Shown: positions 2,338 to 33,488 of the stretch, piece after piece | Layout: every line of letters begins with the position of its first letter | How positions within the stretch are numbered: the stretch's first letter is position 1 | NCBI RefSeq assembly: GCF_900491935.1 | Contig: NZ_UEXK01000004.1 | Location: forward strand, 4,390,581-4,424,172 | Length of the DNA: 33,592 bases | Direction: 5' to 3' | DNA from: Klenkia terrae | Lineage (GTDB): Bacteria > Actinomycetota > Actinomycetes > Mycobacteriales > Geodermatophilaceae | Program-made: the position numbers and the translations under genes | Notes under the pieces: model-generated | The model's database searches: none | What the model was told of the DNA's origin: nothing | The model's input: only the letters and a program-made list of their open reading frames with translations

Positions 2338-2351
2338 GGGACCTCCGCCCC
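2338..2351. promoter_or_regulatory. DevR-like box
   Basis: GGGACCTCCGCCCC fits the left half of the DevR-type near-palindrome GGGACCTNNGTCCC and has one mismatch in the right half. It lies about 75 bases upstream of the Usp start at 2425, the same distance as the box upstream of the Hsp20 gene. Confidence 0.5.
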
Positions 2352-2424
2352 TCCCGGCCGGTCGAGAGCGGCACCACGGTGGACAGGCCCGGCGACCGGT
2401 CCGGGCTGACCACGGAGGTGTGCC

Positions 2425-3441
2425 ATGCCCGACCTGACCGACGTCCCCTCCGGCCCGAGCAATACCTCGGCCGATCCCTCGTCCCCGCCCGTCGTGGTGG
2501 GAGTGGACGGCTCGGTCGATTCCCGAGCCGCCCTGGTCCACGCCCTCGGCGCGGCGGCACGCCGGGGAGGGGAGCTGCGGATCGTGTCGACCTTCTCGCT
2601 GCAGGCGATGTGGTGGGGTGGCTGGCCGATCGCCCTGCCGCTGGACAGGCTGAGGGACGACCTGGAGGCGCGGGTGCGCCAGATGCTGACCGAGGTGCGC
2701 GACGACCCGGCCGTCGCCTCCGTGGCGGGCGCGGACCGCGTGGTCACCATGCTCGACGTCGCGGTGGGGCCGGCGGTCACGAGGCTCGTCGAGGCCTCGG
2801 CCGGTGCCTCGTTGTTGGTGGTGGGCACGCATGGGCGTGGAGTCGCGCGGGACGTGCTGCTGGGGTCGGTGGCGCTGCAGTGCGTGGCGCACGCGCACTG
2901 CCCGGTCCAGGTCGTCCGGGCAGGTACGCAGGTCGGTCGACCGGGTCCGGTGGTCGTCGGCGTGGACGGGTCTGAAGGGTCGCGGGCGGCGCTCGTCGCG
3001 GCCCTGGCCGAGGCGGCTCGCCGCGGGGCGGAGGTCGTCGCACTGGCCGCGTTCGAGATGGTCGACCATTGGGTGGACCTGTCCACCGTGGGCGCCCCAG
3101 GACGGGACGAGGTGCGCTGGCAGGTGCAGCGCGGCGTCGATGACCTCGTCGCCGATGCGCTGTGCGAGCACCAGGCCGTGACGGTCGGTCCGGTCCCCGT
3201 CGTGCGGACCCTGGTGGTCGAGGGGCCACCCGCCCAGGTGCTGGTGCGCGAGGCGACCGACCTGGACGCCGTGCTGCTCGTGGTCGGGAGCCGCGGTCGC
3301 GGTGAACTGCGCGGGCTGCTGCTCGGCTCGATCGCGCTGGCCTGTGCTGCCCGGGCACCGGGCCCCGTGCTGGTCGTGCACCCGACGTCCGTCCGGGCGA
3401 CGGACTCGGCCCCGATCGCGGCCGCCGCGGCCACCGGCTGA
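2425..3441 (+). CDS. Universal stress protein, tandem Usp domains, canonical ATP-binding type
   Basis: A 338-residue cytoplasmic protein with two UspA domains in tandem (about 22-165 and 173-322), like the long Usps of the mycobacterial DosR regulon. Each domain opens with VVVGVDGS and ends with the ATP-binding G-2x-G-9x-G-S pattern: GTHGRGVARDVLLGSVA in the first and GSRGRGELRGLLLGSIA in the second. Both domains probably bind ATP. Usps of this type are linked to growth arrest and hypoxia survival; the partner is unknown. The ATG at 2425 is preceded by GGAGGT at good spacing and by a DevR-like box 75 bases upstream. It is monocistronic and faces the nitroreductase operon tail to tail with a 14-base gap. 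Confidence 0.93.
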   Translation: MPDLTDVPSGPSNTSADPSSPPVVVGVDGSVDSRAALVHALGAAARRGGELRIVSTFSLQAMWWGGWPIALPLDRLRDDLEARVRQMLTEVRDDPAVASVAGADRVVTMLDVAVGPAVTRLVEASAGASLLVVGTHGRGVARDVLLGSVALQCVAHAHCPVQVVRAGTQVGRPGPVVVGVDGSEGSRAALVAALAEAARRGAEVVALAAFEMVDHWVDLSTVGAPGRDEVRWQVQRGVDDLVADALCEHQAVTVGPVPVVRTLVVEGPPAQVLVREATDLDAVLLVVGSRGRGELRGLLLGSIALACAARAPGPVLVVHPTSVRATDSAPIAAAAATG

Positions 3442-3455: not shown

Positions 3456-4394
3456 TCAGCGGGCGAGGCCGGCGTCCGGGTCGCGGTGCAGCGGCGGCAC
3501 CTCCCACGTCTCGGTGTGGTCGTGCAGGACGTCGACCATCGGACGGCGGGGCCCCGGCAGCGGGCCGGGGGTGCCTCTGCCGACCCGCACCAAGGCCTGC
3601 AGCCGTCGGCCGGGGCACAGCTCCTGCTCCGCCCGCGCCCGGACGGCCGGCACCTCGACCGGTCCGGTGACCGGGCCGCCCGTGCGGCCGTGGCGGGTGG
3701 CCTCCAGCAGCACCCTCTGCAGGGCCCGGCCGGCCTGCACACGGTCGGAGGCGGTGTCCCCAGCGGTGACCAGCGCGATCCGCGCGGGTGCCCGCGCCAG
3801 CTCGGCCGCACCGGTCCGGCGGGTGCCGTGCAGAGCCGGGCACAGCGCGGCGGCGTCGCCGGCCCACTGCGTCGAGCGGTTGGCCAGTTCCTGCGGGAGC
3901 ACCATCAGCTGGACGCCGTGGGCAGCGGCCGCGCCGGTGAGGTCCGCGGCCAGGTCCCAGGGGAGGTCCTCGGACACCAGTCCCTCCCGGCAGGTGTGCC
4001 GCAGCTCGACCACCGGGTCGAGCGCCGCCAGGCGCGGATCGGGGACCTGCCCCCCTGGTCGGAGGACGGCGACCAGCGCCTCGTCCGCGGGGTCGGGCAG
4101 CACCTGCACGTCGACGGCGACACCCACGGCTGCGGCGCCGACCTCGGCGGTGCACAGCGCGGCGCCCGCGCCGGCCAGCGCGACGAGACCGGTGGGGTCG
4201 TGGTCGACGCAGCGGGAGCGGTCCAGCCGCAGTTCCAGCCGGTCCGGGAGGAGGACCCACCACCACGGTTGGGTGTCCTCTGCCGACGGGGACCAGCGGG
4301 CGCGGTCCACGCCGCGCCGCAGGGCGTTCGACGTCCGCCGCGGCAGCCGCCGGGGGGAGGAGGCCGGCGGGGCGATGCCGGGCATGCCGATCAC
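3456..4394 (-). CDS. Acg-like nitroreductase family protein (divergent)
   Basis: A 312-residue flavoprotein of the Acg subgroup of nitroreductases, whose mycobacterial members (Rv2032, Rv3127, Rv3131) belong to the DosR regulon. Their substrate is unknown, and sequestration of FMN has been proposed. Family features are the N-terminal SAEDTQPWWWVL (37-48) and the following LRLDRSR...DPTG block. Relatives usually carry S-V-H-N-T-Q-P-W; here HN is replaced by ED, so flavin or substrate contacts may differ. The GTG at 4394 overlaps the stop of the upstream Usp (GTGA), and the ATG three codons later is an alternative. It is the last gene of a three-gene operon with the Usp and a second nitroreductase. 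Confidence 0.85.
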   Translation of the reverse strand: MIGMPGIAPPASSPRRLPRRTSNALRRGVDRARWSPSAEDTQPWWWVLLPDRLELRLDRSRCVDHDPTGLVALAGAGAALCTAEVGAAAVGVAVDVQVLPDPADEALVAVLRPGGQVPDPRLAALDPVVELRHTCREGLVSEDLPWDLAADLTGAAAAHGVQLMVLPQELANRSTQWAGDAAALCPALHGTRRTGAAELARAPARIALVTAGDTASDRVQAGRALQRVLLEATRHGRTGGPVTGPVEVPAVRARAEQELCPGRRLQALVRVGRGTPGPLPGPRRPMVDVLHDHTETWEVPPLHRDPDAGLAR

Positions 4395-5293
4395 CGTGCG
4401 GACGTCCGGGCCCGGACCACTCCGCGCGGTCGGCGGACGTCCGCACCGACCGGGACCACCAGCACCGGGCATCCCACCCGGTCCAGCACCCAGCCCGACG
4501 TGCGGCGGGCCGGGACGCGGGGGCGCAGTCCGTGCCGGCCGAGCACGAGCACGGCAGCGGACTCCGCTGCCTCCAGCAACCTGTCCGCGGCCGTCCCGGG
4601 TCGCAGGACCAGCTCGACCGGTACTGCGGGGTGCCCGGTGCGGACGTCGGCGACCAGCCGTTCGAGCAGGTCGGCCTCGGCCTGGGCCACCGAGTGCTCC
4701 GGTGGAGCAGCGGAGCTGGGCCCGGTCCCGTGCACCCGCCAGGCGTGCAGCACCACGAGCGAGGAGCCCCGCACGCATGCCTCGTCGACCGCGGCACCGA
4801 TCAGCTCGGCCGTGCCCGGCCGGCAGTCCACGCCGACGACGACCGGCCCGGTGGGGTCGCCGCCGGCGCGGTGCACCAGGACGGGGCAGGGCGCGTCGCG
4901 GACCAACCGGCCGGCGACCCGGCCCAGGGTGGGGCGGCTGCCGGTCGAGCTGCCCCCGACGACGATCCGGCCCTCCGGGCCCGCGCGCCGGGCGAGGACC
5001 TGCTCGGCGCTGCCGGTCGTGTACTCGGCCGTGACCCGCAGGGCCGGGCACGCGACGGTCAGCTCGTCCTGCAGCACCGCGAGCCGCTGCTGCAGCGCCC
5101 GAGCACCCACCTCGAGCGCCGCCGTGATCCCCCCGGCGCCCCCGGAGGGGATCACGGTGAGGATCGACGGTGCTCCTGCCACGAGGTGGAGCGGCAGCAG
5201 TCGACGTCGGGCCTGTGCTGCACCCTCGCGGGCGGCCGCCGTCGACGCGGGGCCGCTGTCGACCCCCACGACGACCGACGGCGGAGGGCTCAC
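4391..5293 (-). CDS. Universal stress protein, tandem, degenerate ATP-binding motifs
   Basis: A 300-residue protein with two Usp domains (about 8-145 and 153-290). The strand-one motifs VVVGVDSG and VVVGVDCR are kept, but the nucleotide-binding ends are altered: the first domain reads VGGSSTGSRPTLGRVAGRL, the second LGRHGLRPRVPARRTSG, without the normal G-2x-G-9x-G-S/T. ATP binding is therefore doubtful, and a structural or partner-binding role is possible. The GTG at 5293 overlaps the upstream nitroreductase stop (GTGA) and its own stop overlaps the next GTG, so all three proteins are probably made together. Because it sits between two flavoproteins it may work with them. Confidence 0.88.
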   Translation of the reverse strand: MSPPPSVVVGVDSGPASTAAAREGAAQARRRLLPLHLVAGAPSILTVIPSGGAGGITAALEVGARALQQRLAVLQDELTVACPALRVTAEYTTGSAEQVLARRAGPEGRIVVGGSSTGSRPTLGRVAGRLVRDAPCPVLVHRAGGDPTGPVVVGVDCRPGTAELIGAAVDEACVRGSSLVVLHAWRVHGTGPSSAAPPEHSVAQAEADLLERLVADVRTGHPAVPVELVLRPGTAADRLLEAAESAAVLVLGRHGLRPRVPARRTSGWVLDRVGCPVLVVPVGADVRRPRGVVRARTSAR

Positions 5294-6432
5294 ACCCACG
5301 TCGTCCCCCCGCGTCCGTCGGACACCGGCAGGTGATGACCGGGCAGGTCCCGGGCGGCCCGTGCACCGCGGGCCGCGGGCCAGCCGGTGGGGCCCGGGCA
5401 GGGGACGGGGGGTGGTCCGGGAGCAGGTCGGGTGCTGCCGCTGACCACCTCGTGACGGGCTCGTCGGGGGCTGGCCGCGGTGGGCACCGCCCGGCCGATC
5501 CGCAGCAGCAGCTGCGGGTGCACCCCCCAGCACAGCTCGCGGCCCAGCGATGCGCGGGTGCGGGGGACCTCGGTGACCTGGCTGAGCGGACCGGCCGCCC
5601 AGCCGTCTGCGGTGAGCTCCAGCAGCACCCGCTCCATCGCCTCGCCGGCCCGCACCCAGGCCCGTTCGTCGTCGGCATGGCTGGCCAGCACCACCAGGGC
5701 GCCGGTCCTCCCCGCCCGCGTCGCGGCCGGCAGGGCACCCAGGCCTCGGGTGTCGAAGTCCCGGACGGGGACGTCGTCCTGGGCGCTGCCGTCCACCCGC
5801 GGCACCGTGGTGGACGGCACGCCGTCCCCGCTGCGGGTGTCGCGGTTGGTCCAGATCCGCAGCTCGTGCCGGTAGGCGGGGTCGGCGTTCTGCTCCGCAT
5901 CGGCGTCCTGGGCGAGACGGGCGACGAGCCGGTGCTGGTCCTCGGTCAGCACCGGCACCGCGACGGTGTCCTCGGCGGCGGCCGCGACGAGCACCCGGTC
6001 GAGCACGTCCGGGGGGACCGGGTCGTCGGTGTAGCCCCGGCGGTTGGTGCGCCGGGCCCGGACCTGCGGGGCGAGCGCGGCCAGGGCGCTGTCCGGGGGA
6101 CCGTCGACCAGGTGGACGACGGCGGCCAGGTCGGGGTCGGTGGTCCGTGCGGAACGGTCCACCTCGACCGCCCGGCCGCGGGCGGCCAGCTCGACCCGGG
6201 TGTTGAGGACGGCGGCGCCCACGCTGAGCATGAGCTCACGGCCGGCCGGGTCCAGGACGGGCAGTCGGCGGCTGCGGTCAGCACGGACGTCGATGCGGTC
6301 CGGGTGCAGCACCAGGAGCCAGGGCTGGGTGTTGTGCACCGACGGGGCCAGCAGCGCGGCGTCGGCAGCGGCCTCGATGTCGGCCATCCGGGTCGGGTCG
6401 ACGGGTCGGGGCAGGTCGGGTCCGGTGGTCAC
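5290..6432 (-). CDS. Acg-like nitroreductase family protein
   Basis: A 380-residue flavoprotein of the Acg nitroreductase family. The conserved N-terminal motif APSVHNTQPWLLVLHPD (29-45) is intact, followed by a conserved DRSRRLPVLDPAGRELMLSV block and the late GWAAGPLSQVTEVP and LLRIGRAVP segments. Roughly the last 55-60 residues, after SPRRARHEVV, are rich in Pro, Gly and Ala and exceed the usual family length of about 330, so the C-terminus may be a recent extension by loss of the original stop. The GTG at 6432 is preceded by GGAGG at 4-5 bases. It is the first gene of the nitroreductase-Usp-nitroreductase operon, with a DevR-like box about 80 bases upstream (6511-6524). Confidence 0.9.
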   Translation of the reverse strand: MTTGPDLPRPVDPTRMADIEAAADAALLAPSVHNTQPWLLVLHPDRIDVRADRSRRLPVLDPAGRELMLSVGAAVLNTRVELAARGRAVEVDRSARTTDPDLAAVVHLVDGPPDSALAALAPQVRARRTNRRGYTDDPVPPDVLDRVLVAAAAEDTVAVPVLTEDQHRLVARLAQDADAEQNADPAYRHELRIWTNRDTRSGDGVPSTTVPRVDGSAQDDVPVRDFDTRGLGALPAATRAGRTGALVVLASHADDERAWVRAGEAMERVLLELTADGWAAGPLSQVTEVPRTRASLGRELCWGVHPQLLLRIGRAVPTAASPRRARHEVVSGSTRPAPGPPPVPCPGPTGWPAARGARAARDLPGHHLPVSDGRGGTTWV

Positions 6433-6510
6433 GGTGCCTCCAGGGGTCGGGTTCCCCGACCGTCCCGTAGCTGCCGCCGCGTGCGGCAGGGGCCGTGGGC
6501 CACATCCCGG

Positions 6511-6524
6511 GGGACCTGGGTCCC
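6511..6524. promoter_or_regulatory. DevR-like box between the nitroreductase operon and a Usp remnant
   Basis: GGGACCTGGGTCCC is an almost perfect palindrome (GGGAC-CTGG-GTCCC) of the DevR-box form. It lies 79 bases upstream of the nitroreductase start (6432, minus) and 37 or more bases upstream of the plus-strand Usp remnant, so it could serve both directions. Confidence 0.7.
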
Positions 6525-6560
6525 TGGCCGGTCCGGGTTCCGCCGACCCACGGTGGTCCG

Positions 6561-6955
6561 GTGGAGCTGGGACAGGTGGACGGGAGCTGGCCGGGTGCCG
6601 ATGCGTGGCTGGTCTGCGGGGTCTCCGGATCACCGAACAGCCGGGCCGCGCTGCGGTGGGCCCTGCGCGAGGCCGCGGAGCGCGATGCCAAGGTCATGGC
6701 TGTCCGGGTCTGGGCCGGGGGCGCTGCTGCGGCGCGCGCGGAGTGCGAGCGGGACCTGGTGGCCACGGTGCGGGCAGCGGTCCAGGACACCGGGGTGCGC
6801 GGACGTACCTGGGTGCGCTTGCTGGACGGTGACCCCGACGGCGTGCTCGCCGCGCTCGCCGAGGAGGCGGACCTGCTGGTCCTGGGATCCCACGAGGTCT
6901 CCCACGGCGGGTGACCCGGGGATGCTCCTCGGGTCCGGTGCCGGCGACAGGTCAC
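6561..6955 (+). pseudogene. Single-domain universal stress protein remnant, frameshifted and truncated
   Basis: The plus strand encodes most of one Usp domain (WLVCGVSGSPNSRAALRWAL... to ADLLVLGSHEVSHGG), then stops at 6912-6914 just where the ATP-binding loop should continue. One frame over, the next bases encode GMLLGSGAGDRS, the expected continuation with the G-S pair, so a one-base shift near 6911 has broken the gene. The usual final strand (CPVLVV) is absent because the convergent Usp gene ends at 6952. The GTG at 6561 is chosen because a more distant GTG (6495) would place the DevR-like box inside the coding region; GTG 6576 is also possible. A short functional protein cannot be excluded. 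Confidence 0.7.
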
Positions 6956-7854
6956 CCCGGTCCGCCGAGGGGGAGCACCAGGGTCGGGCAGTCGGCGCGG
7001 TGGGCGAGGACGGACCCGGTGTCCCGGTGCGGTGTCCGGCGTCCACCGCGGCGGCCCAGCACCAGCAGCTGTGCGGCGGTGGCTGCACCCAGCAGCGTCG
7101 GCAGGACGGGGCCGTGGCGCACGACTCCCCGTACGACGACGTCGGGGAAGTCCTCCCGGCAGCCGGCCAGGCTCTCGCCCCAGAGCCGGACCTCGTCGTC
7201 ACGGGCGTCGGTGAGGCTGAGCGGGCCGTCCGGGTGCTCCCACGCCGAGGCCGGCGACGGTGCGTCCCAGACGTGGACGGCCACCAGCTCGGCCCGTCGG
7301 CGTGCGGCCTCGGCGAAGGCCAGGCGGACGGTGGGCCCGGACTCCGCACGGCCGTCCAGGGCCAGGACGACGGGGCCCGGCGGACCGATGACCACGGTGC
7401 GGGACGCGGTCGGGACGAGCAGCAGCGGCACCGGTGAGCTCTCCAGCAGTGCAGTGGTCACCGACCCCAGGAGGACCCGTTCGGCCAGGTTGCGGGCCCG
7501 ACTGCCCACCACCAGCAGGTCGGTGTGCGCGGCGGCGGCCAGCAACGCCGGTGCGGTGCTCCCGTCGGCCAGCCGCCACTGCACGTCGAGTGGCCCCCCG
7601 ACCGGCGCGGTGTCCTGCGCAGAGTCCTGCGCCGCGTCCTGCGCCGCCGTCCGCAGGGCGAGCTCGGTCGACGACCGCAGGGCGCAGGCGGCGCCGTGGC
7701 CGTCCCGGCCCTGGACACCGGCGCCGGCCCAGGGCGACACGTGCACGATGAGCAGTCCGCACCCGCGGTCCCGGGCGGCCCGGGCTGCGACCGCGACGAC
7801 CGGCCTGGATGCGCGGGACCCATCCACCCCGACGACGACCCGGGGCCCGTTCAC
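6952..7854 (-). CDS. Universal stress protein, tandem
   Basis: A 300-residue protein with two Usp domains (about 4-150 and 158-298). The first opens with RVVVGVDGS and ends in GSRARNLAERVLLGSVT, close to the ATP-binding consensus. The second opens with VVLALDGR and has a degenerate loop, GRRGGRRTPHRDTGSV. A DAAQDSAQDTA stretch at about 73-85 comes from a short repeat of GTCCTGCGC-type codons on the plus strand. The GTG at 7854 overlaps the stop of the Rv1733c-like gene (GTGA); an ATG 21 bases upstream would give a 25-base overlap and is less likely. It forms a two-gene operon with the membrane protein, under a DevR-like box. Confidence 0.88.
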   Translation of the reverse strand: MNGPRVVVGVDGSRASRPVVAVAARAARDRGCGLLIVHVSPWAGAGVQGRDGHGAACALRSSTELALRTAAQDAAQDSAQDTAPVGGPLDVQWRLADGSTAPALLAAAAHTDLLVVGSRARNLAERVLLGSVTTALLESSPVPLLLVPTASRTVVIGPPGPVVLALDGRAESGPTVRLAFAEAARRRAELVAVHVWDAPSPASAWEHPDGPLSLTDARDDEVRLWGESLAGCREDFPDVVVRGVVRHGPVLPTLLGAATAAQLLVLGRRGGRRTPHRDTGSVLAHRADCPTLVLPLGGPG

Positions 7855-8450
7855 CGCAGCAGCTGCTTGCGCCACGAGGGTTCCACCGCCGCCCAGCCCG
7901 CCGCCCAGCGACGGGCCCGCGACCGGTCGAGCAGCGCCACCCCACCGAGGTGGGCGAGGACTGCGGTGACCACGACCCCGAGTGCCGTCACGGTGCCGAT
8001 GGCCGCCGACTGCAGGGCGACGTCGGAGGGGCTCAGCGGGGCGTGCCGCCGCTCACCGGTCGCGGTCGTCCAGATCATGATCCTGTCGCCGGCGTCGTCC
8101 CCCGCCGACGCGGGCACCCTGCCCTGGACCGGGAGGCCTGCCGGGGAGGTCCAGCTGGCTGCGACCCACACCGGTTCACCGGACGTGGTGCCCGCGGTCC
8201 GGTGGACGTCGACCGCCAGCACGGCCTCCACCTGGTGCAGGCGCGCGGTGTCGGCAGCGGCCTGCTGGGACAACACCTCGCGGGCCGCCGTCCCGGCCGA
8301 CAACCCGATGGCCGGGGACATCACGAGGACGGCGGTCAACCACAGCCGCAACCCGACGTGGAGACGGTCCGTGGTGCGTCTCATCGACCCTGAGCCCAGG
8401 CTGAACCGCCGCACGGCGTGGCCCAGGCAGAGCACTCGTCCGTTGCTCAT
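7851..8450 (-). CDS. Rv1733c-like two-helix membrane protein
   Basis: A 199-residue protein resembling M. tuberculosis Rv1733c, a DosR-regulated membrane protein of unknown biochemical role known as a latency antigen. As in that family there is an N-terminal motif before the first helix (RRTTDRLHVGLRLW, about 24-37), a first membrane helix at about 33-55, a soluble loop with a GEPVWVAASW segment and GDRIMIWT (about 85-145), and a second helix at about 150-176 followed by a short charged tail with W residues. The ATG at 8450 has a GAGGAG site at suitable spacing. It is co-transcribed with the following Usp through a GTGA overlap; DevR-like boxes lie about 90 bases upstream (8541-8554). Confidence 0.82.
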   Translation of the reverse strand: MSNGRVLCLGHAVRRFSLGSGSMRRTTDRLHVGLRLWLTAVLVMSPAIGLSAGTAAREVLSQQAAADTARLHQVEAVLAVDVHRTAGTTSGEPVWVAASWTSPAGLPVQGRVPASAGDDAGDRIMIWTTATGERRHAPLSPSDVALQSAAIGTVTALGVVVTAVLAHLGGVALLDRSRARRWAAGWAAVEPSWRKQLLR

Positions 8451-8540
8451 CCTGCTCCTCCCCGGCCGCCTGTCCGGCGACCCAGCCCACCGTGACGTCG
8501 GTGGCCCCTCCTCGGGGACGGGCCAGGGTCCCGGCTCGAC

Positions 8541-8554
8541 GGGACCTCGGTCCC
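8541..8554. promoter_or_regulatory. DevR-like box upstream of the Rv1733c-like gene
   Basis: GGGACCTCGGTCCC, flanked by C and G, is a strong near-palindrome. A second, wider pair of half sites (GGGAC...GTCCC, 8515-8532, with an 8-base spacer instead of 4) lies closer to the gene. Paired boxes are usual in DosR promoters. Confidence 0.7.
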
Positions 8555-8581
8555 GCCGAGCGGACCGGACCGGCCGCGGCC

Positions 8582-9114: not shown

Positions 9115-9132
9115 TGGTCGGGCCGGACGTGC

Positions 9133-9146
9133 GGGACCTTCGTCCC
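9133..9146. promoter_or_regulatory. DevR-like box upstream of devR
   Basis: GGGACCTTCGTCCC lies 80 bases upstream of the devR ATG. The same 14 bases recur exactly at 24489-24502 between the second kinase and a Usp. This suggests autoregulation of devR, as known in M. tuberculosis. Confidence 0.75.
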
Positions 9147-9225
9147 GGGTCCTGGGCATCTCCGGGTGTCTAGGGTCGGGGCAGGCGACGGACCGGCCGC
9201 CGGGGACGGGGAGGACGGGGGACCG

Positions 9226-9897
9226 ATGACGACCGACACGGACCGACCGGAGCAGCTGCGCGTCTTCCTGCTCGACGACCACGAGATCGTCCGGCGCGGT
9301 GTGGCCGACGCACTGGAGAGCGACCCGGGGATCGTCGTCGTGGGTGAGGCCAAGAACGCCTCCGAGGCGTTGGCCAGGGTGCCGGCGTTGCGTCCCGACG
9401 TCGCCGTCCTGGACGTGCGGCTACCCGACGGCGACGGGGTGACCGTGTGCCGCGAGCTGCGCTCCCGGATGCCGGACCTCAAGGTGGTCATGCTCACCAG
9501 CTACAGCGACGACGAGGCGCTGTTCGACGCGATCATGGCGGGGGCCTCGGGGTACCTGCTCAAGCAGATCCTCGGTCAGGACCTCGTCGCGGGGGTGCGC
9601 ACCGTCGGTGCCGGCGGATCGCTGCTGGACCCCACGGCCACGGCTGCCGTGCTCGACCGGATGCGGCGGGCAGCCGAGCCCGCCGGGCCGATGGCGTTGC
9701 TCAGCGACCAGGAGCGCACCGTGCTGGAGCTGATCGGCGAGGGCCTGACCAACCGCCAGATCGGTCAACGGATGTTCCTGGCCGAGAAGACCATCAAGAA
9801 CTACGTGTCGCACCTGCTGGCCAAGCTGGGCCTCGAGCGGCGCACCCAGGTGGCCATCCTGGCCACCGAGCTGCGCGCTGCCCCACCACGCCGCTGA
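9226..9897 (+). CDS. devR: DevR/DosR-type response regulator (NarL family)
   Basis: A 223-residue transcription factor, close in length and sequence to M. tuberculosis DosR (217). The receiver domain (about 10-128) has the acidic pair DD17-18, phospho-acceptor D63 in [12 protein letters not shown]91 and K113. The LuxR-type HTH (about 155-218) reads [22 protein letters not shown] followed by [25 protein letters not shown], nearly identical to the DosR recognition helix region, so it should bind the same GGGAC-type boxes seen throughout the window. The ATG at 9226 follows a GGGGAGG tract at rather long spacing; an upstream in-frame extension to 9106 would cover the boxes and is rejected. It ends 17 bases from the convergent DevS-like kinase gene, its probable partner. 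Confidence 0.95.
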
Positions 9898-9905: not shown

Positions 9906-9927
9906 GCCGGCCGGTCAACCGGTCGGC
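9906..9927. terminator. Bidirectional hairpin between devR and the kinase gene
   Basis: GCCGGCCGGTCAACCGGTCGGC is a 22-base near-palindrome with one mismatched pair. It lies between the convergent gene ends and covers the stop codon of the kinase gene (9915-9917). There is no U-tract on either strand, as is common in actinobacterial terminators. Confidence 0.5.
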
Positions 9928-11651
9928 ACCGGCAGGGGGACCCGCCAGCGCAGTGCCGTACCGCCGTCGGGCAGCGGGACGGCGACGCACGACCCGCCTC
10001 GCCGCTCGGCGCGGTCCGCGGCGTTGCGCAGCCCGCTGCGGGCCACCGCCGGATCGATGCCCCGCCCGTCGTCCCGGACCTCGACGACCACCTCCTCGGT
10101 GACCTCCACCGTGACCGTGACGTGGCGGGCCGCGGCATGGCGGGCCGAGTTGCTGACACCCTCGCGGACCACGGCCAGCACGTCGGCGGCCAACGGCCCG
10201 GTCACGAGGGAGTCCACCGCACCCGAGGTGCGGACCGCCGTGCGCAGGACGTCCCCGGCCGTCTCGGTCACCACCTCCCGGAGCCGGCGGCGCAGACCGG
10301 CCGAGGGGTCGACGGCACGGCTGTCGTGCAGGTCGTAGATGGTCGTGCGGATGTCCCGCACCGTCTCGTCGAGCTGCTCGACCACCCTGCTCAGCCGCAC
10401 CCGGACCTGGTCGTCGGCCACCCGGGGGAGCGCTGCCTGCAGGCTCAGGCCGGCGGCGAACAGCCGCTGGATGACGTGGTCGTGCAGGTCCCGAGCTATC
10501 CGTTCCCGGTCGGCCACCACGTCCAGCCGACGCGCCACCCGCTGACGAGCGGCCGTGTCCAGGGCCAGGGCGACCTGGTCGGCGAAGGCGCGCACGAGTT
10601 GCCCGCAACCGGGGTCGAAGGTGGCCCGTCCGGCGCGGCGGGCAGCGACGACGACCGCGCCGCGACCTGGGGGTCCGGGCAGGGGCACGCCCAGCGCCGG
10701 GCCCCATGCGACGTGCCCGTCCGGTCCGGTGGACGAGCGACCGGCCAGGTCCACGATGACGACGGCCCCGGTGTCGACGACGGCCTGCAGCGGCGGTGAG
10801 TCCGCGGGCCACAGCCGTTCCCCGCTCAGGTCCACCAGACCCACGCCGCTCTGCGCCTGGACCTCCCAGCCACCGGCGGCATCCGGCCCGAGCAGCAGCC
10901 AGGCGCCGTCGGCCTCGGTCAGGCTCGCCACCCGCTCGACGACCAGCGCCAGGGCGACCTCGGGAGGCTGCCCGTCGAGCAGCGCAGCCCGCACGTCACC
11001 GACGGCTGCCTGCCACCGCGACAGCTCAGCCCTGTCCCGGTGCTGGTGCGCGTTGTCGATGGCGGTGCCGGCAGCGGCCGCGAGGGCGACGAGCACTCTC
11101 TCGTCCTCGTCGGTGAACGGGCCGCCACCCCGCTTCTCGGTCAGGTAGAGGTTGCCGAACACGACGTCCCGCACGGTGATCGGTACCCCCAGGAACGCGC
11201 GCATGGGCGGGTGCCCAGGTGGCAGGCCGACGCTGGACGGGTGCTCGGCGAGGTCGTCGATCCGCAGGGGGCGGGGGGCGGTGATGAGCTGGCCCAGGAT
11301 GCCGTCACCGTGCGGGGGGCGGCCCATCGCCGCCCGTTGCTCCGCGGTGACCCCGACGGTGAGGAAGGTCCCCAGCCCACCGCCCGGGGCGAGCACCCCC
11401 AGCGCCCCGTACCGGGCGCCCACCAGGTGGGCGGCAGCCAGCACCACGCGGTGCAGCGTCCCGTCCAGGTCGAGCCCGCTGGACACGCTGAGGAACGCAG
11501 CGAGCAGCTCGGGCACCCGTTCCTGGGTGCGGGCGACCGAGGCCAGCCGGTCCTGCGCCTCCTCGAGCAGATCGTTCAACCCCATCCCGGCCAGTGCCTC
11601 GCACTGGGCGCAGCCCTCGCCCGGCCCGGCGCCGGGCTGTGCCGCCCTCAC
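9915..11651 (-). CDS. devS: DevS/DosT-type sensor histidine kinase (GAF-GAF-HisKA_3-HATPase)
   Basis: A 578-residue cytoplasmic kinase, the same length as M. tuberculosis DosS. GAF-A (about 58-205) carries PPGHPPM with H147, at the position of the heme-binding H149 of DosS, so heme-based gas or redox sensing is likely but not proven. GAF-B covers about 230-370. The dimerisation/phospho-acceptor helix reads RIARDLHDHVIQRLF with H390. The ATP-binding domain has an N-box around VREGVSNSARHAAARH and a G-box in DDGRGIDP. An unusual GCAQC motif (C14, C17) precedes the GAF domain. The GTG at 11651 overlaps the stop of the PNPOx-like gene (GTGA); starting at a later ATG (11585) would lose the CxxC. 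It is convergent with devR. Confidence 0.93.
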   Translation of the reverse strand: MRAAQPGAGPGEGCAQCEALAGMGLNDLLEEAQDRLASVARTQERVPELLAAFLSVSSGLDLDGTLHRVVLAAAHLVGARYGALGVLAPGGGLGTFLTVGVTAEQRAAMGRPPHGDGILGQLITAPRPLRIDDLAEHPSSVGLPPGHPPMRAFLGVPITVRDVVFGNLYLTEKRGGGPFTDEDERVLVALAAAAGTAIDNAHQHRDRAELSRWQAAVGDVRAALLDGQPPEVALALVVERVASLTEADGAWLLLGPDAAGGWEVQAQSGVGLVDLSGERLWPADSPPLQAVVDTGAVVIVDLAGRSSTGPDGHVAWGPALGVPLPGPPGRGAVVVAARRAGRATFDPGCGQLVRAFADQVALALDTAARQRVARRLDVVADRERIARDLHDHVIQRLFAAGLSLQAALPRVADDQVRVRLSRVVEQLDETVRDIRTTIYDLHDSRAVDPSAGLRRRLREVVTETAGDVLRTAVRTSGAVDSLVTGPLAADVLAVVREGVSNSARHAAARHVTVTVEVTEEVVVEVRDDGRGIDPAVARSGLRNAADRAERRGGSCVAVPLPDGGTALRWRVPLPVPTG

Positions 11652-20096: not shown

Positions 20097-20122
20097 TCCA
20101 CGACGCGTTCGGCGCCCGCACG

Positions 20123-24488: not shown

Positions 24489-24502
24489 GGGACCTTCGTC
24501 CC
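24489..24502. promoter_or_regulatory. DevR-like box between kinase 2 and a Usp gene
   Basis: GGGACCTTCGTCCC, identical to the box upstream of devR (9133-9146). It is 57 bases from the kinase ATG and 100 bases from the Usp GTG, so it may control both. Confidence 0.75.
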
Positions 24503-24601
24503 GCCCGTCCAGGACGTGCGCCCGTCCTGGGTGGGCTCACGGGTGAAGACGCTGGCACCAGCCCGGTGCACGCACCCGGGGACGACACCGAGGAGGCCGT
24601 G

Positions 24602-25594: not shown

Positions 25595-25621
25595 CCGCCC
25601 GACCGTCGCCCAGGAGGAGCA

Positions 25622-25662
25622 GGGGGCCTTGGTCCCCGAGGGCCGAGCCGTACCGCTCTCGC
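25622..25662 (+). repeat. Composite regulatory element, copy 2
   Basis: GGGGGCCTTGGTCCC, six variable bases, then CCGAGCCGTACCGCTCTCGC, matching copy 1 at 16267-16307 in order and spacing. The box core is 25623-25636. Here the element points toward the gene at 25727, 65 bases downstream. The CCGTACCGC part lies about 20 bases from the box centre, where a -10 region could be. Confidence 0.65.
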
Positions 25663-25726: not shown

Positions 25727-26041
25727 ATGACCACACCTCAGGACGCCGGGACGTCGCGGCAGCGCCCACGCCCCGACCCGCTCGCCATGTCACCGGCGGA
25801 GAAGGTGGCCGCGGAGTGGGAGGCCCGGCACGACGCCGCGGCCCGCGGCCACAGCGGTTCCGCCGGCGCCGTTCAGCACTACCTCGCCGAGTCGCGGGCC
25901 CGCGAGGCGCAGCGCGGCGGGTCCGGGTCGGCCGCGCACGCCTCGACGCCGCCCCACAGCCCGGCACCGGTGGACCCGGCGTCGTCGACCCCGCCCCCGG
26001 CCCGGCGCCGACGCTGGTGGCCCTTCGGCAGAGCTCGCTGA
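25727..26041 (+). CDS. Small unknown protein under a DevR-like box
   Basis: A 104-residue soluble protein that I do not recognise. The first half is charged and probably helical (MSPAEKVAAEWEARHDAAAR, 21-40, then GAVQHYLAESRAREAQR); the second half is a Pro/Ser/Ala linker ending in the basic-aromatic tail RRRRWWPFGRAR. The start is clear: ATG with GGGAGGAG at 6-7 bases. Codon use resembles its neighbours. It is monocistronic, with the composite box element just upstream. The WWPFGR tail could contact the membrane or nucleic acid, but this is a guess. Confidence 0.75.
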   Translation: MTTPQDAGTSRQRPRPDPLAMSPAEKVAAEWEARHDAAARGHSGSAGAVQHYLAESRAREAQRGGSGSAAHASTPPHSPAPVDPASSTPPPARRRRWWPFGRAR

Positions 26042-26059: not shown

Positions 26060-27658
26060 TCAACCGGGCACGAGGTCCCGGCGTCGGAACGAGCCGAGAC
26101 CGGCCGCCAGCAGCGCGACGGCCAGCGCAGACAGGGTGAGCAGCGGCAGCGCCGCCCACTTCTCGGCCGGCACCGCCGGCGTCCGGGCCACGGGGGACAG
26201 GACGGTCACCCATCCCGGCCAGTCGAAGGACTCGGCGAACAGGGTGATGCCCGCGACGCCCCCGACGACGATCCATGCGGCGGGCACCGCGGCGGCGGGG
26301 ACAGCGCCGAGGAGCGCCCCCGCCAGCCCGGCCACCACCCACACCGCCGGTGCGTAGCCCAGCGCCGCCCCGGTGAGCCGGAGCAGGTCCGTTGCGTCAC
26401 CGGTGACCACCGCGCGGCTGACGCCGGTGGCCAACCCGTCCAGCGCGAGCAGGGCCGTGGCCCCCACCAGGGCCACCGTCAGGTGGCTGCCCAGCCAGCG
26501 GAGCCGGCCGACACCGGCGGCCAGCACCGGCTCGGCCCGGCCGGCGGCCTCCTCGGTGCGCGCCCCGATCGTGGCCGAGACGGTGTAGCCGGCCACCATC
26601 AGCGCGGTGACCTGCAGGGTGACCCCGAGGTAGGCGTTGACCAGGCCGGCGGTCGAGCCCGCGGGGAAGAACACCTGTGCATCCGGGTTGTCACCGATCA
26701 GCGTCTCGACGGACTCGGCCAGGCCTCCGTAGACCAGGCCGAGCAGGACGATCCCCGCCGCCCACGCCAGCAGGGCGCCGCGGTGCAGCCGCCAGGCCAG
26801 GCCCAGCGGGCTGGACAGCGACCGCGGTGCCGTGGCCGCCCCGGGTCGGGGTTGCAGAAGCCCCGACCCCAGGTCGCGGCGGTCCAGCAGGTGCCGGGCG
26901 GCCAGCATCAGCACCGGCGTCCCGACCACGGGCAGCAGCAGCGGCCACCACCGGTCCGCCGACCACGGGTGGGTGGCCTGGGCCCAGCCGACGGGCGATG
27001 CCCAGGACAGCCCGTCGTGGGTGATGTCGCCGATCGCCCGCACCACGAGGGACAGCCCGAGCGCGCCACCGACCAGCCCGTGCACACCCCTGGTCCCCGC
27101 GGTCAGCTGCGCACAGACGGCGGTGACCCCGGTGAACACCCAGCCGACGCCGGCGGTGGCGGTGCCCAGCAGCACTGAACCCTGCTCCGGCAGACCGGTC
27201 AGCGCCGCCCCTGCCGCGACCGACGCCCCCATCCCCGTGCAGGCCAGCACCGACAGCAGGGTGGCCGCCGTCACCGGCGCGTGCCGCCCGACCTGCGCCG
27301 AGCGGACGAGCTCGGTCCGGCCGGACTCCTCGTCGGCCCGGGTGTGCCGCGCGGTGGTGAACATCGCCATCAGCACGGTGAGCACCACCAGCGGGGTCGA
27401 GATCTCGAAGGCAACCGTGCCGGCCACCGTGTCCAGGCCCACCGGCGGCCCGGAGAACGCGATGCTGGCCGCGTTGCTCCCCGCCGACGCCTGGTAGGCC
27501 GCCAGTGCCTCGGGAGTCCGGTAGATGGTCTGGTTGGAGGTGGACTGGACGGCCACCAGCGCGCCGCCGGCGAGCAGCCACACCGGTAGGCGCAGCCGGT
27601 CCCGGCGCACCGCGAACCCCAACAGCGCCAGGGTGCCGGTCAGCGTCGGGGTGCTCAC
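26060..27658 (-). CDS. ABC-2 type exporter permease (antibiotic/polyketide exporter-like)
   Basis: About 532 residues with roughly twelve membrane helices in two similar halves, as in the large actinobacterial ABC permeases annotated as polyketide or tetronasin exporters. The two halves begin with [21 protein letters not shown] and [19 protein letters not shown], and each has a cytoplasmic [13 protein letters not shown] / [13 protein letters not shown] loop, the family hallmark E-x-G-R. It would form the channel for the ATPase encoded upstream; the substrate is unknown. The GTG at 27658 overlaps the ATPase stop (GTGA); the ATG at 27667 gives a 13-base overlap instead. Confidence 0.88.
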
Positions 27659-28575
27659 GACGACCATCTGCCGGCCGGGACGGCCTCGGTCGGGACGTCA
27701 CCGTACTGCCGCAGGAACAGCTCCTCCAGCGTCGGCGGGGCGCTGACCAGGCTGCGCAGGCCGGCCTCGACCAGTCGTCGGACGGCACCGTCGAGCTGGT
27801 CGCGGTCGACGTCGAACCGCACCCGCCGGTCGGCGACCTGCAGCCCGTGCACGCCGGGGAGGCCGGTCAACCCGGTGACGGCGCGCTCCGTCTCGGCGGT
27901 GACCGACGTCCGGGTCAGCGAGCGCAGCTCGGCGAGGGTCCCGCTCTGCACGGTCCGCCCCAGCCGGATGATGCTCACCCGGTCGCACAGCGCCTCGGCC
28001 TCGGCCAGGAGGTGGCTGGACAACAGCACGGTGCGCCCCTCGGCCCGGGCCTCGCGGATGCAGCTCTGGAAGATGGCCTCCATGAGCGGGTCGAGGCCGG
28101 AGGTCGGTTCGTCGAGCACGAGCAGCTCCACGTCGGAGGCCAGGGCCGCGACCAGGGCGACCTTCTGCCGATTGCCCTTGGAGTAGGTGCGCGCCTTCTT
28201 CCGCGGGTCGAGCTCGAAGCGTTCCAGCAGCTGCTCTCGGCGCCGCCGGTCGATCCCGCCCCGCAGCCGGCTGAGCAGGTCGATCACCTCGCCACCGCTG
28301 AGGGTCGGCCACAGCGTGACGTCGCCGGGCACGTAGGCCAGCCGCCGGTGCAGCGCGACGGCGTCCCGCCAGGGGTCCCCCCCGAGCAGCCGGACGCGTC
28401 CGGAGGTGGGCCGCAGCAGACCCAGCAGCACCCGGATGGTGGTCGACTTGCCCGATCCGTTCGGGCCGAGGAACCCGTGCACCTCACCGGCCCGCACCTG
28501 GAGGTCGAGCCCGTCCAGGGCGCGGGTGCGCCCGAAGGTCTTGACCAGGTCCGACACCGAGATCACCGCGGTCAC
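27655..28575 (-). CDS. ABC transporter ATP-binding protein
   Basis: A 306-residue ATPase partner of the following permease. Walker A is GPNGSGKST (about 37-45), the Q-loop region follows, the signature is the variant YSKGNRQKV (about 132-140) in place of LSGGQ, Walker B is LLVLDEP with the D-loop SGLDP, and the switch His is in LLSSHLL. The C-terminal 90 residues form the usual DrrA-type extension. The GTG at 28575 is chosen; a second GTG at 28566 is possible. No strong ribosome site is visible. A poor DevR-like site (GGGACCGGCGACCC, 28635-28648) lies upstream, so regulon membership is doubtful. Confidence 0.9.
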
Positions 28576-28666
28576 AGCTGAGGACCGTGCCCGGCCGGGC
28601 GGTCCGCGGGAAGGTGCTCCCGCTGCTGATCCGCGGGACCGGCGACCCTGGTCCCGTCGCCGCAGG

Positions 28667-29234: not shown

Positions 29235-30863
29235 GTGACCGAGAAGCACACGCCGTACCCGGTCCGCGTCGACGCCACGCTCGACGCACCGATCTCCCGG
29301 TGGCTCTGGCTGGTCAAGTGGCTGCTGCTGATCCCGCACGCCGTCGTGCTGGCGTTCCTGTGGATCGGCGTCGGGGTCGTGTCGGTGGTCGCCTTCGTCG
29401 CCGTCCTGGTCACCGGCCGGTACCCCCGGCCGCTGTTCGACTACACCGTGGGGGTGCTCCGCTGGACCTGGCGGGTCCACTACTACGGCTACGCGGCTCT
29501 GGGCACCGACCGCTACCCGCCGTTCACCCTCGCCGACGTGCCGGACTACCCGGCGCACCTGGACGTGCCGTACCCCGAGCGGCTGTCCCGTGGGCTGGTG
29601 CTGGTCAAGTGGTGGCTGCTGGCGCTGCCGCAGTACCTGGTCGTCGCCGTCCTCGCCGGTGGCGGCCTCTGGTTGAGCTCCTGGTCCAGCCGCGGCGGGG
29701 ACGACGGCTGGGCCTTCGGCGGACTGGTGGGCCTGCTGGTCGTCGTCACGGGGGTCATCCTGCTGTTCACCGGGCGCTATCCCGGGCAGCTCTTCGACTT
29801 CGTGCTGGGCCTGGACCGCTGGGTGCTGCGGGTCGTGGCCTACGCCACCCTGCTGACCGACGAGTACCCCCCGTTCCGGCTGGACATGGGCGGCACCGAC
29901 CCGGGCTCGCGGCCCCTGACCGGCCCACCGGCACCCGTCGGGGGCGGGGCGGCTGTGGACGGGCCGACCCCGCCGGCCAGCTCGCCGGCGGTCGGCTCGC
30001 CGTCGGTCGGCGACGGCCGGCACCCGGTGGGCAGCCGGTGGACCGGGGGGCGCGTGGCGGCCCTGGTGATCGGCGCGCTGCTGGTGCTCGCCTCCACCGG
30101 GCCGCTCCTCGGCGGCGGAGCGCTGCTGTGGGCCGACCGCACCCAGCGGGACGGCGACTGGTTGACCAGCCCGGACGTCGTGGCCGCGACGGACCGCTAC
30201 GCGCTGGTCAGCGACGACGTCCCCCTGGACACCGCCGGTGCGGACTGGGTCGTCGACGACTTCCTGGGCGACGTCCGCATCGAGGTGACCGCACTCGACG
30301 GGGAGGAGGTGTTCGTCGGCGTCGCGCCGTCCGCCGCGGTCGCCGGGTACCTGGGCGGTGTCGGACGCACCCGGGTCGACGACGTGGGTGACGAGGGGCG
30401 CGGCTGGGCCTGGGACACCGGCTCCGGGTCCCGCATGGGCCCGGCGATGATGGACGACCTGCCCGGCGGACCGCCGGGGACCGCCCCCGGCGAGCTCGAC
30501 ATCTGGACGGCGTCGTCCGAGGGCGCCGGGACGCAGACGCTGGAGTGGACCCCGGAGGACGGCGACTGGACGGTCGTCGTGATGCCCACCGACCGGGGCG
30601 CGGGCCTCGCCGTGCGGCTGGCCGTGGCCGCGACCGCACCGGGCCTGGTCTGGCTGGCCTCGGGGCTGCTCGCGCTCGGTGCGGTGCTGCTGGTCGCCGG
30701 CGTCCTGCTGATCGCGCTGGCGGTGCACCGCGCCCAGGGCCGCCCCACGCCACCGCCGGCCGGCCACCCGGCCGCGCCGACCGGCCCGGCCCCGGACCCG
30801 GGCGGCGCTCCACCGGCTCCGACCGTCGACCGGCCGCTGAGCCCCTCCGGCGGGCAGCGCTGA
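29235..30863 (+). CDS. DUF4389-type membrane protein, two repeats plus extracytoplasmic domain
   Basis: 542 residues. The N-terminal 210 contain two DUF4389-like repeats, each with [19 protein letters not shown]- or [17 protein letters not shown]-type helices, TGRYP and a DEYPPF/DRYPPF motif (about 20-105 and 110-215). A Pro/Ser linker (about 215-270) follows, then a helix (about 276-300), a soluble domain of about 165 residues ([20 protein letters not shown]... to [15 protein letters not shown]) probably outside the membrane, and a last helix (about 475-500) with a Pro-rich tail. Function unknown; such proteins often lie in DosR-type islands of soil actinobacteria in my reading, but this is not established. 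The GTG at 29235 follows GGAGG at 7 bases. Confidence 0.82.
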
Positions 30864-30917
30864 GCTGTCCGCGGGCCGACACCGCGCACCGACCGTCGGG
30901 TCGGGGGTGCCTGCGGC

Positions 30918-33488
30918 TCAGCCGCGCGGCGGTGCTGCCCGCCCGGTCCGGTCGACGGCATCGACGCCTCGGCCAGGCCGCCGGGCCCGCACGGCCTTGC
31001 CGATCGCGTCCACGGCCAGCACCGCGGGGACCGCGCACCCGGCCACGGCCAGGCCGGCCAGGGACGGCGGCCGATGGCCCAGCAGGTCCGCGACCGGTGG
31101 CACGGTGAGCACCGCGGCCAGCACGAGCACCTCGACACCCAACGCACCGACCAGCAGCGGGTTGCCGCGCCAGCCCAGCCGCCAGACCGGCCGGCTGCTG
31201 CTGCGGCAGGCGAAGGCGGTGCCGAACTGGCCGAGGACGATTGCCGTGAAGGCTGCGCCCGAGGCGGTCGCCAGCGCGGTGCCGGATGCCGTCTCGCCGT
31301 AGCTCCACCCCGCCGACACCAGCACGGTGAGGAAGGCGGTCATCGCGACGGTCGCCTCCACGGGTCCCAGCACGGCCAGCGCCCGGGTGAGCACGTGCCG
31401 GTCGACGAGCCGGCGGCGGGGCGGTGGACCCTCCAGCACCCGAGGGGAGGAGGGCTCCGCGCCCAGCGCCAGCGCCGGCAACAGGTCGGTGGCGATGTCC
31501 AGGCCGAGCACCTGCAGCACCCCGATGGCCAGGGGGACCGCCCCCCCGGTGACGCTGAAGACCAGGAAGGGCGCGAGCTCGGCCACGTTGTCGGTCAGGT
31601 GGTAGGTCAGGAAGCGGCGGATGTTGGCGAACGTCGTGCGCCCCTGCCGCACCGCCGCCACGACGGTGGCGAAGTGGTCGTCCAGCAGCACCAGGTCCGC
31701 TGCCTGGCGCGCGACGTCGGTGCCGCTGCGCCCCATGGCCACGCCGATGTCGGCCGCCCGCAGCGCCGGCCCGTCGTTCACCCCGTCGCCGGTCATGGCC
31801 ACCACGTGACCGCGTGCCTGCAGTGCCCGGGCGATGCGCAGCTTGTCCTCCGGCGCGACCCGGCACACCACGATCCCGTCGTGGTCGAGCAGCGCACCCA
31901 GGGCCGTCGCGTCGGCCGGCAGGTCGGCGCCGGTGACGACCCGGCTGGAGCCCTCCTGCCACAGCCCCACCTGGCGGGCGATCGCGGTCGCGGTGGCACC
32001 GGCGTCCCCGGTGACCATGGCGACCGCGATGCCGGCCCGCCGGCACTCCACGAGCGCGGCGTCCACACCTTCCCGCGGTGGGTCCTCCAGACCGACCAGG
32101 CCCAGCAGGTGCAGCTCCCGTTCGGCCTCGTCGGCCCCCGCCCGCGCAGGCAGGTCCACGGTGCGGACGGCGACGGCGAGCACCCGCAGCCCGGCGGAGG
32201 CCAGCCGGGTCGCCTCCGCAGCGGCGCCGGACGGGTCGGTGCAGCGGGGGAGCACCGAGTCGGGGGCACCCTTCACGTACAGCTCGTGGCCGACCAGGAC
32301 CGACATCCGGCGGCGACGCGGGTCGAAGGGGAACCGGCGGGTGGCCGGGACGTCGTCCGGAGCCGGGGCGCCGCTGCGGCGGGCGAGGGCGTCCAGGGCG
32401 GCCTCCATGGGGTCGCCGGAGGCGGTCCACCCGTCCGGGGCCTCCTGGATGCGCCCGGTCGAGCAGCGCACCGCCGCCCGGGCGAGCTCCGCGGTGGCCT
32501 CCCGCGCGCCCGGTGGACCGGTGAGCTGCCCGGTCGGCTCGTAGCCCACGCCGCTCACCTGCACCCGACCTGCCGGTGTCCACACCTCGAGCACCGCCAT
32601 GCGGTTCTGGGTGAGGGTGCCGGTCTTGTCGGTGCAGATGACGGTGGTCGAACCCAGCGTCTCCACCGACTCGAGCCGGCGCACCAGGGCCTGCTCACGG
32701 GCCAGCAGCTGGGCGCCGCGGGCCAGGGACAGCGTGACGGTGGGGAGCAGCCCCTCGGGGACCAGCGCGACGGTGACGCCGACGGCGAACAGGAACCCGT
32801 CGGAGGCCGGGAGCCCCAGGAGGAGGCCGGTGCCGAATCACGCCAGCCCGACGGCGACCGCCAGGACGGTGATGGCCCGGACCACCCGGTCCAGCTCCCG
32901 GCCCAGCGGCGACCTCGCGCGCTGCACCGTGCCGGTGAGCGTGGCGATCCCGGCCAGCCGGGTGTCACCGCCGACGGCGGTGACGGCGGCCGAGCCCTCG
33001 CCCTCGACGACGAAGCACCCCGCCGAGCCGGTGTCCCCGCCCGCCTTGTCCACCGGCTCGCTCTCCCCGGTGAGCATCGCCTCGTCCAGCCGCAGGCCGT
33101 GCACCTCCACCAGCACGAGGTCGGCGGCCAGCCGGTCACCGGCCTCGAGCAGCACCCGGTCGCCGACGACCAGGTCGACGGCGTCGACCTCCTGCCGGCG
33201 CCCGTCGCGGACGACGGTGACCCGGTGCGGGACGAGGTCCCGCAGGGCCTGCGCCGCCCGGTCGGCCCGGTGCTCCTGGACGAAGGCGAAGGTGCCGTTG
33301 AGCAGCACGACGACGACGATCGCCATCCCGAGCTGCGGCATCCCACCGAGCACGGCCAGCGCGGCGGCCCCCCACAGCAGCAGCGCGAAGAAGTGCACGA
33401 ACTGGGCCACGAGCATGCGCGCCGCGGACGGGGGACGCTGCTGGGGCAACCGGTTGCCCCAGCCGCGGCCCCCGTCCGCGGCGCCCAT
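30918..33488 (-). pseudogene. Cation-transporting P-type ATPase (CtpF-like) with an in-frame TGA
   Basis: A P2-type ATPase of about 860 codons, related to CtpF/Rv1997, a DosR-regulated pump. In order: N-terminal membrane helices with AQFVHFFALLLWGAAALAVLGG, the actuator LTGESEPVDK, helices M3-M4 with VPEGLLPTVTLSLA, phosphorylation site DKTGTLTQN, nucleotide site YVKGAPDS, hinge MTGDGVNDGPAL and C-terminal helices. A TGA at 32838-32840 falls between VLAVAVGLA and FGTGLLLGLPASDGFLF, in the same frame with homology on both sides; TGG (Trp) by one base change would restore it. The gene is therefore a nonsense pseudogene, a strain variant or a sequence error. The frame stays open upstream of the ATG at 33488 to the window edge, so the true start may lie outside. 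Confidence 0.85.

Follow-up and report, generated by a model that had tools for sequence, protein, structure and literature searches.

A stretch of 33,592 nucleotides of the Klenkia terrae genome (assembly of 4.81 Mb in 23 contigs, 99.98% complete), lying at positions 4390581-4424172 of contig NZ_UEXK01000004.1 (C4:4390581-4424172) and referred to here as the window, encodes a predicted DevR/DosR (OsdR)-type regulon with its own two-component system, which probably belongs to an integrated genomic island. Assignment to this type of regulon is well supported by the orthology of the regulator, the kept heme and DNA-contact positions, the gene content and the enrichment of operator-like sites. 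Genes were called from codon usage, and protein families were assigned by Pfam and NCBIfam scans. The proteins encoded include DevR, two DevS kinases, the products of seven Usp genes, two Acg-type proteins, Rv1733c-family, PNPOx and flavodoxin proteins, two CBS proteins, PLDc_N, a phosphoketolase (XFP), a zinc alcohol dehydrogenase, Hsp20, an ABC exporter, a P-type ATPase and DUF4389. The closest named relatives, as judged by the window DevR, are Modestobacter, Geodermatophilus and Blastococcus, placing the stretch in the Geodermatophilaceae.

The response regulator DevR1 (9226..9897, + strand) has Mycobacterium tuberculosis DevR as its best sequence match in the PDB (3c3w, E 5.5e-83; the next, VraR, 2.9e-42), and the positions aligned to DevR D54, T82, K104, K179, K182 and N183, which we take to act in phosphorylation and DNA contact, are conserved both in DevR1 and in DevR2, a second DevR of this genome. 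The sensor kinases DevS1 (9915..11585, - strand) and DevS2 (22675..24432, - strand), 64% identical to each other, share a GAF-GAF-HisKA_3-HATPase architecture; DevS2 matches the heme-GAF chains of DosT/DevS (2vzw/2y8h, E ~1e-48), and the His and Tyr positions of the heme GAF, presumably corresponding to DevS H149 and Y171, are kept in DevS1 (His125/Tyr147), DevS2 (His151/Tyr173) and DevS3, the third kinase of the genome. These matches bear out the DevR orthologue-like regulator and the two DevS-like kinases named in the original prediction. Many Geodermatophilaceae carry an additional DevR-like regulator of 62-68% identity, alone or alongside a close DevR.

A GGGACC-N3-G-N-CCC-like palindrome recurs upstream of devR in the loci of 26 relatives, six of which have no hit at two mismatches or fewer. 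An asymmetric matrix was built from 14 sites in relatives' devR promoters, none of them from the window; the sites were hand-picked from hits with at most two mismatches to GGGAC-N4-GTCCC, leaving out L041 and dropping a duplicate site (L032), and the background consisted of twelve stretches placed by hand. At scores of at least 11 there were 10 intergenic hits in 4,201 window bases vs 2 in 19,160 background bases, so the palindromes are not equally frequent in other intergenic DNA; at 13 or more the hits numbered 8 and 0. Counted by non-convergent gap, 7/16 gaps of the window reached 13, vs 0/87 in the background (Fisher p 6e-7; 1/87 at 11 or more), the gap before the usp gene at 6576 being scored as empty because a later gene call begins at 6495. 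The boxes are far above chance, but the prediction that they stand at most promoters was not confirmed, since about half of the gaps have one. A pattern with a 6-base spacer had the wrong spacing (660 forward matches vs 643 in its control) and was discarded.

The highest-scoring box-like site precedes devR itself (9131..9148, score 22.1, with a weaker site at 9099-9116). Others lie before the two-domain Usp gene at 2425..3441 (+ strand; Pfam Usp E 7e-45; site 2336..2353, 16.8); before the pair formed by the Rv1733c family gene (7851..8450, - strand; NCBIfam NF050032, 107 bits, cut-off 80) and a Usp gene (6952..7854, - strand; Pfam) (site 8539..8556, 18.5); between devS2 and a further two-domain Usp gene (24566..25594, + strand; Pfam) (site 24487..24504, 16.9); and before the ABC exporter (26060..28575, - strand: permease 26060-27667, without a Pfam match, and ATPase 27655-28575, with PF00005) (site 28633..28650, 14.9). 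The site at 6509..6526 (14.0), an exact match to the strict pattern given below, lies between the Acg family FMN-binding oxidoreductase gene (5290..6432, - strand; NCBIfam 273 bits, cut-off 199) and a short Usp gene (6576..6914, + strand; Pfam), and would be within the latter reading frame with the alternative start at 6495. Two sites at 19183..19226 (19183: 12.7; 19209: 17.1) occupy the divergent gap between a short ABC transporter membrane-domain protein gene (19305..20096, + strand; PF00664) and the long run that includes the phosphoketolase. Another is at 20121..20138 (14.6), and a weaker one (25621..25638, 11.4) precedes the gene of a 104-residue protein (25727..26041, + strand). One of the 10 hits, a high-scoring box at 22434-22451 (15.5), sits between convergent genes and fits no promoter.

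The run behind the two boxes at 19183 and 19209 begins at 19091 and is joined by 4-base overlaps or short gaps, all on the - strand: a CBS protein gene (18420..19091; Pfam), in which the predicted CBS domain was recovered but the BON domain was not; a gene without a Pfam family (17998..18423); a second CBS gene (17540..18001; Pfam); a Usp gene (16537..17490; Pfam); a PLDc_N gene (16202..16540; Pfam 25.8 bits, cut-off 23.3); the sixth gene, the phosphoketolase XFP1 (13746..16205); and a Usp gene (12829..13749; Pfam). XFP1 has all three XFP domains and aligns with solved phosphoketolases over nearly its full length (E 6e-244).

Proximity of phosphoketolase and DevR recurs in other genomes. Among 57 genomes of the family there are 28 XFP places, and 10 of these (2 from K. 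terrae itself, 4 from one genus) have a DevR match on their contig at a distance of no more than 25 kb. Among 158 genomes of the class at least 7 of the 86 XFP places outside K. terrae are near a DevR, in six families (G157, G091, G074, G151, G166, G086, G075), against a chance expectation of about 1 by a rough estimate; most XFP genes in these genomes are not linked to DevR. Boxes scoring at least 14 within about 700 bases upstream were found for 7/11 family XFPs of at least 67% identity, 2/15 of about 50% identity and 3/13 from other families, and the mirrored matrix gave no hits upstream of the same 39 XFPs. Among the seven boxed family XFPs, the one in G002 shares its gap with devR, and those in G023 and G019 are on contigs without a DevR match.

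XFP is present in 10 of the 80 named DevR loci, and in nine of these ten an acetate kinase gene lies within 66 bases of it, the tenth being cut by the locus end; in Actinophytocola (L055:6486-10642) the order is XFP, AckA, DevR on one strand. An adjacent acetate kinase was found in 5 (L106, L111, L114, L116, L119) of 12 further XFP loci (L106, L107, L110, L111, L114-L121). Neither DevR island of K. terrae holds an acetate kinase, the sole copy in the genome being at 3121266; its best upstream score was 8.1, and it was rejected as a boxed target.

The original prediction saw the regulon as collected in one place, which was not borne out. The cluster extends about 14 kb past the window, to ~C4:4,438,000, through genes for PPDK_N, Usp, DUF1918, Usp, SPFH, two P-type ATPases and two Acg/nitroreductase-like proteins, and as a whole it is called island 1 here. 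A second DevR (DevR2, 78% identity) and the third DevS lie at C4:4675574-4677856, within an island 2 (~C4:4.670-4.694 Mb) about 275 kb away that carries the same boxes. Its content comprises Usp genes, a HATPase protein, an ANTAR protein, DUF4342, a flavodoxin, two P-type ATPases, a CBS protein, an Acg-like protein under the cut-off and a second phosphoketolase (XFP2), which has a box some 35 bases upstream of its start. Island 1 holds 17 of the 42 Usp-domain matches of the genome and island 2 holds 14, leaving 11 outside both. In the DevR tree, DevR2 groups (support 100/99) with a DevR of 92% identity from G022, a genome of the same genus that has an island sharing much of the gene order of island 2. 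The tree omits L109, L110, L112 and L113, which repeat named records, along with rows that are short or contain stops; L109 was not counted in addition to L038. Island 2, with DevR2, DevS3 and XFP2, probably shares its boxes with island 1. To its right there is a tRNA-Pro, yet with no repeat of this tRNA detected in L005-L007 and no gene called in the interval, a tRNA-Pro island was rejected.

Island 1 has edges of the kind left by integration. On the right, outside the window, is a tRNA-Leu(GAG) (C4:4443700-4443785; ARAGORN), and 89 bases from it the gene of a 410-amino acid tyrosine integrase (PF00589, E 4e-19). On the left, an att-like direct repeat at 1830..1893 (+ strand) copies the 3' end of tRNA-Leu(GAG) and its terminator (88%, 65 alignment columns, E 8e-17) in the same orientation as the intact tRNA end; no other copy was found in the stretches of this genome that were searched. 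The span from repeat to repeat (window 1830 to C4:4443724) is 51,315 bases. Synteny with the sister genomes G022, G029 and G036 includes the block of an iron-dependent alcohol dehydrogenase (Fe-ADH) gene on the left and ends at C4:4392118-4392143, and synteny with G022 on the right takes in the tRNA-Leu(GAG) (127 bases, 94%). G022 has the same tRNA with a 75% identical integrase, followed by other genes, and no dev cluster was seen among the genes called in the 30 kb beyond them. Because the tRNA and integrase, the tRNA-end repeat and the synteny breaks at both edges coincide, the locus looks like an integrated genomic island: a 51.3-kb element that was probably inserted at tRNA-Leu(GAG) by the tyrosine integrase and carries a nearly self-contained DevR/OsdR-type hypoxia/NO regulon. 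Integration of such an island is also the probable reason for the clustering of these genes. A baeRF_family3 (release-factor-like) domain match occurs at L003:14241-16730, between the dev genes and the integrase.

Several observations weigh against this reading. We saw no clean empty site. In G022 about 95 kb separate the Fe-ADH block from the tRNA, and the flank between them is inverted, so a rearrangement must be added to a simple insertion, and no tRNA-Leu was found in the fetched stretches of G029 and G036. The left repeat has drifted to the 88% given above, the GC content of the island (0.742) does not deviate overall from that of the flanks (0.743 and 0.748), low GC being confined to 5.7 kb by the integrase (4438000-4443661; 0.694), and no gene for replication or transfer could be recognised in the island proteins that were scanned, a set that does not include every small open reading frame (ORF). 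In the tree, DevR1 has no firm place within the family clade and branches at its base. The rearranged neighbourhood without a clean empty site, the ordinary GC and the lack of recognised transfer genes would suit an ordinary chromosomal OsdR/DevR cluster that was lost or moved in the sister species, next to an integrase and tRNA repeat left by some other, smaller or decayed, abutting element. Most relatives' DevR loci, among the 80 named loci scanned, also have neither the tRNA nor a related integrase, and a DevR-phosphoketolase-Usp region of Mycobacterium massiliense without adjacent phage genes was read by its authors, in the available part of the report, as ancestral and lost elsewhere (PMC4263727). 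We nevertheless consider such a cluster unlikely: the sole second copy of the tRNA end to be detected is directly to the left of the first boxed gene, at most 290 bases from the synteny break in three sister species. The distribution of DevR1 also counts for integration, since among eight other genomes of the genus (E <= 1e-75) no match exceeds 79% identity and five genomes have none, vs matches of 84-89% in other genera. The idea that DevR loci are generally associated with tRNA-Leu(GAG) was rejected: ARAGORN called this tRNA in L053 and L055 only, the latter call overlapping two coding genes and looking false, and the real count of 1/80 was treated as chance. That one case, in Wenjunlia (L053:14516-14603), lies about 3.8 kb from DevR, with no integrase related to that of island 1.

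It is very improbable that the locus is instead a general stress/Usp cluster under non-DevR control whose palindromes are a by-product of GC-rich intergenic DNA. The strict pattern GGGACCTNNGDCCC has 14 matches genome-wide, not above the 15 of its mirrored control, and a matrix of published Streptomyces coelicolor OsdR sites gave no clear excess in the window, which also tells against a DevR-controlled island. The placement of the matches differs, since 11 of the 14 fall in the two islands (5 in the window, a count that is not independent because the pattern was picked after the window boxes were seen; 2 in the right flank; 4 in island 2, which was unscanned when the pattern was set; 3 elsewhere), whereas the control has 1/15 there (0 in island 1, 1 in island 2). 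For the window, the matrix test alone is independent, and in it none of the 87 background gaps reached 13; the boxes that recur upstream of XFP in relatives, where the mirrored matrix had no hits, point the same way. The split of strict matches into 7 in island 1, 4 in island 2 and 3 elsewhere means that no single island contains the whole regulon.

The remaining genes of the window are an Acg-like oxidoreductase gene, divergent (3456..4394, - strand; NCBIfam NF047509, 147 bits, under the cut-off of 199), Usp (4391..5155, - strand; Pfam), a PNPOx-like flavoprotein (11648..12106, - strand; PF12900), a flavodoxin-domain protein (12254..12787, - strand; PF12724), a zinc alcohol dehydrogenase (20609..21619, + strand; Pfam), an Hsp20 family protein (21826..22308, + strand; Pfam), a DUF4389 membrane protein (29235..30863, + strand; Pfam) and a P-type ATPase in two same-frame pieces (30918-32684 and 32838-33488; 30918..33488, - strand; Pfam). 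The Usp, Rv1733c-like, PNPOx, phosphoketolase and PLDc_N proteins foreseen by the original prediction were all recovered by the family scans, the HspX-like one at the level of the Hsp20 family, and the 104-residue protein indeed has no Pfam or NCBIfam family, with a 59% match in the DevR locus of one relative (L038). Of the two Acg nitroreductases one exceeded the family cut-off and the other did not; the CtpF-like protein is a P-type ATPase, but its gene is parted by a single in-frame TGA and is either a pseudogene or affected by a sequencing error. No DUF3892 was found among the window proteins scanned with Pfam, the gene at 29235 encoding DUF4389, and the match to SHOCT was below the Pfam cut-off. 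No protein family was found for ORF 1794-2975, and scanning the window against Rfam with its gathering thresholds gave no match. A short ORF (28667-29050) without a Pfam or NCBIfam match looks, by eye, similar to the C-terminal portion of the flavodoxin at 12254, and a relative of it is present in 6/27 close DevR loci. Outside the island, the Fe-ADH gene (window 95-1387) has an odd codon profile (GC 0.60/0.42/0.98 by position) and 93-97% identity in 5/8 other genomes of the genus; directly downstream of it is a long, terminator-like inverted repeat (window 1-94).

The gene content suggests how the system might operate. DevS1 and DevS2 would sense O2, NO and CO through their heme-GAF domains and phosphorylate DevR1, which in its phosphorylated form would bind the GGGACC-type palindromes at its own promoter and in about half of the island gaps, turning on the genes for Usp, Acg, Rv1733c-family and CBS proteins, zinc alcohol dehydrogenase and ABC exporter, as well as the phosphoketolase operon. 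Phosphoketolase would convert sugar phosphates to acetyl phosphate, from which the acetate kinase encoded elsewhere in the genome could form ATP without respiration. A feedback of this product on the regulator is conceivable, since acetyl phosphate phosphorylates OsdR in vitro according to the available part of one report (PMC5069765). We propose tentatively, as a possibility short of an even chance, that a complete oxygen-sensing dormancy regulon and a phosphoketolase are packaged as a site-specifically integrating island, by which a hypoxia programme would be gained in one step, and that the XFP product could act on the regulator as a metabolic latch. The genes, residues, boxes, tRNA-end repeat, integrase and synteny breaks are seen in the sequence itself, whereas sensing, phosphotransfer, induction, the metabolic and feedback roles of phosphoketolase and acquisition by integration are inferred. 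If this is true, a dormancy/hypoxia regulon can move as a whole and establish itself next to one already present, which would go some way towards explaining the large differences among DevR regulons of actinobacteria; here the nearest named relatives are environmental bacteria, so that much of this is accessible outside pathogens. The recurrent linkage of DevR and phosphoketolase, often with acetate kinase, offers a path to ATP formation without respiration, controlled by the dormancy regulator, that can be tested directly, with a possible acetyl-phosphate feedback.

Clustered DevR-type regulons have a precedent in the OsdRK region of S. coelicolor, SCO0167-SCO0219 (Urem et al. 2016, PMC5069765), which, as far as the available text goes, resembles the window in its DevR orthologue and DevS-like kinase in mid-cluster, its Usp, nitroreductase, PNPOx, alcohol dehydrogenase and CBS-type genes, its DevR-type palindromes and its self-regulated regulator. 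In that region there is a single kinase (OsdK), alongside genes for nitrate reductase and transporters, the boxes are of the AGGGCCGATCGGCCCT type, and an integrase edge is not mentioned in this part of the source, whereas the window has two kinases, GGGACC-type boxes, a phosphoketolase, an integrase/tRNA edge and a second island. The DosR/DevR regulon of M. tuberculosis (see also PMC5069765) shares with the window DevR, two heme-GAF kinases (DevS, DosT) and GGGAC-N4-GTCCC palindromes. The Usp, Acg, Rv1733c, CBS, Hsp20 and PNPOx families are likewise common to both; the mycobacterial regulon is scattered, whereas here there are two islands, with a phosphoketolase added and no nar genes in the scanned parts of either island.

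In M. massiliense a table in the available part of one report lists Usp, alcohol dehydrogenase, phosphoketolase, DevR and a sensor kinase together (MMASJCM_2507-2524; PMC4263727), an accessory region like the window in these genes; it differs in being a block of about 18 genes with sulfate transporters and no adjacent phage genes and, in that part of the text, is not treated as a DevR regulon. For Rhodococcus equi, DosR boxes and an Xfp are described separately in the portion seen of PMC2947987, and XFP is described as an acetyl phosphate source in that of a review (PMC6456759). Among the leading literature matches listed there was no DevR regulon on an integrase/tRNA island, and among the matches listed there were no boxes at phosphoketolase promoters, the M. 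massiliense table being the only DevR-phosphoketolase neighbourhood. The tRNA-borne islands catalogued by Islander, from what is accessible of PMC4383910, have an intact tRNA with an integrase at one end and a displaced tRNA 3' fragment at the other, as here; the present island differs in carrying a signalling regulon together with its operators, in having no recognised transfer module and in the drift of the fragment to 88%. The clustering of a DevR-type regulon and the DevR-phosphoketolase neighbourhood were thus already known, and, among the matches listed, the packaging by integrase and tRNA and the boxes at XFP promoters appear to be new.

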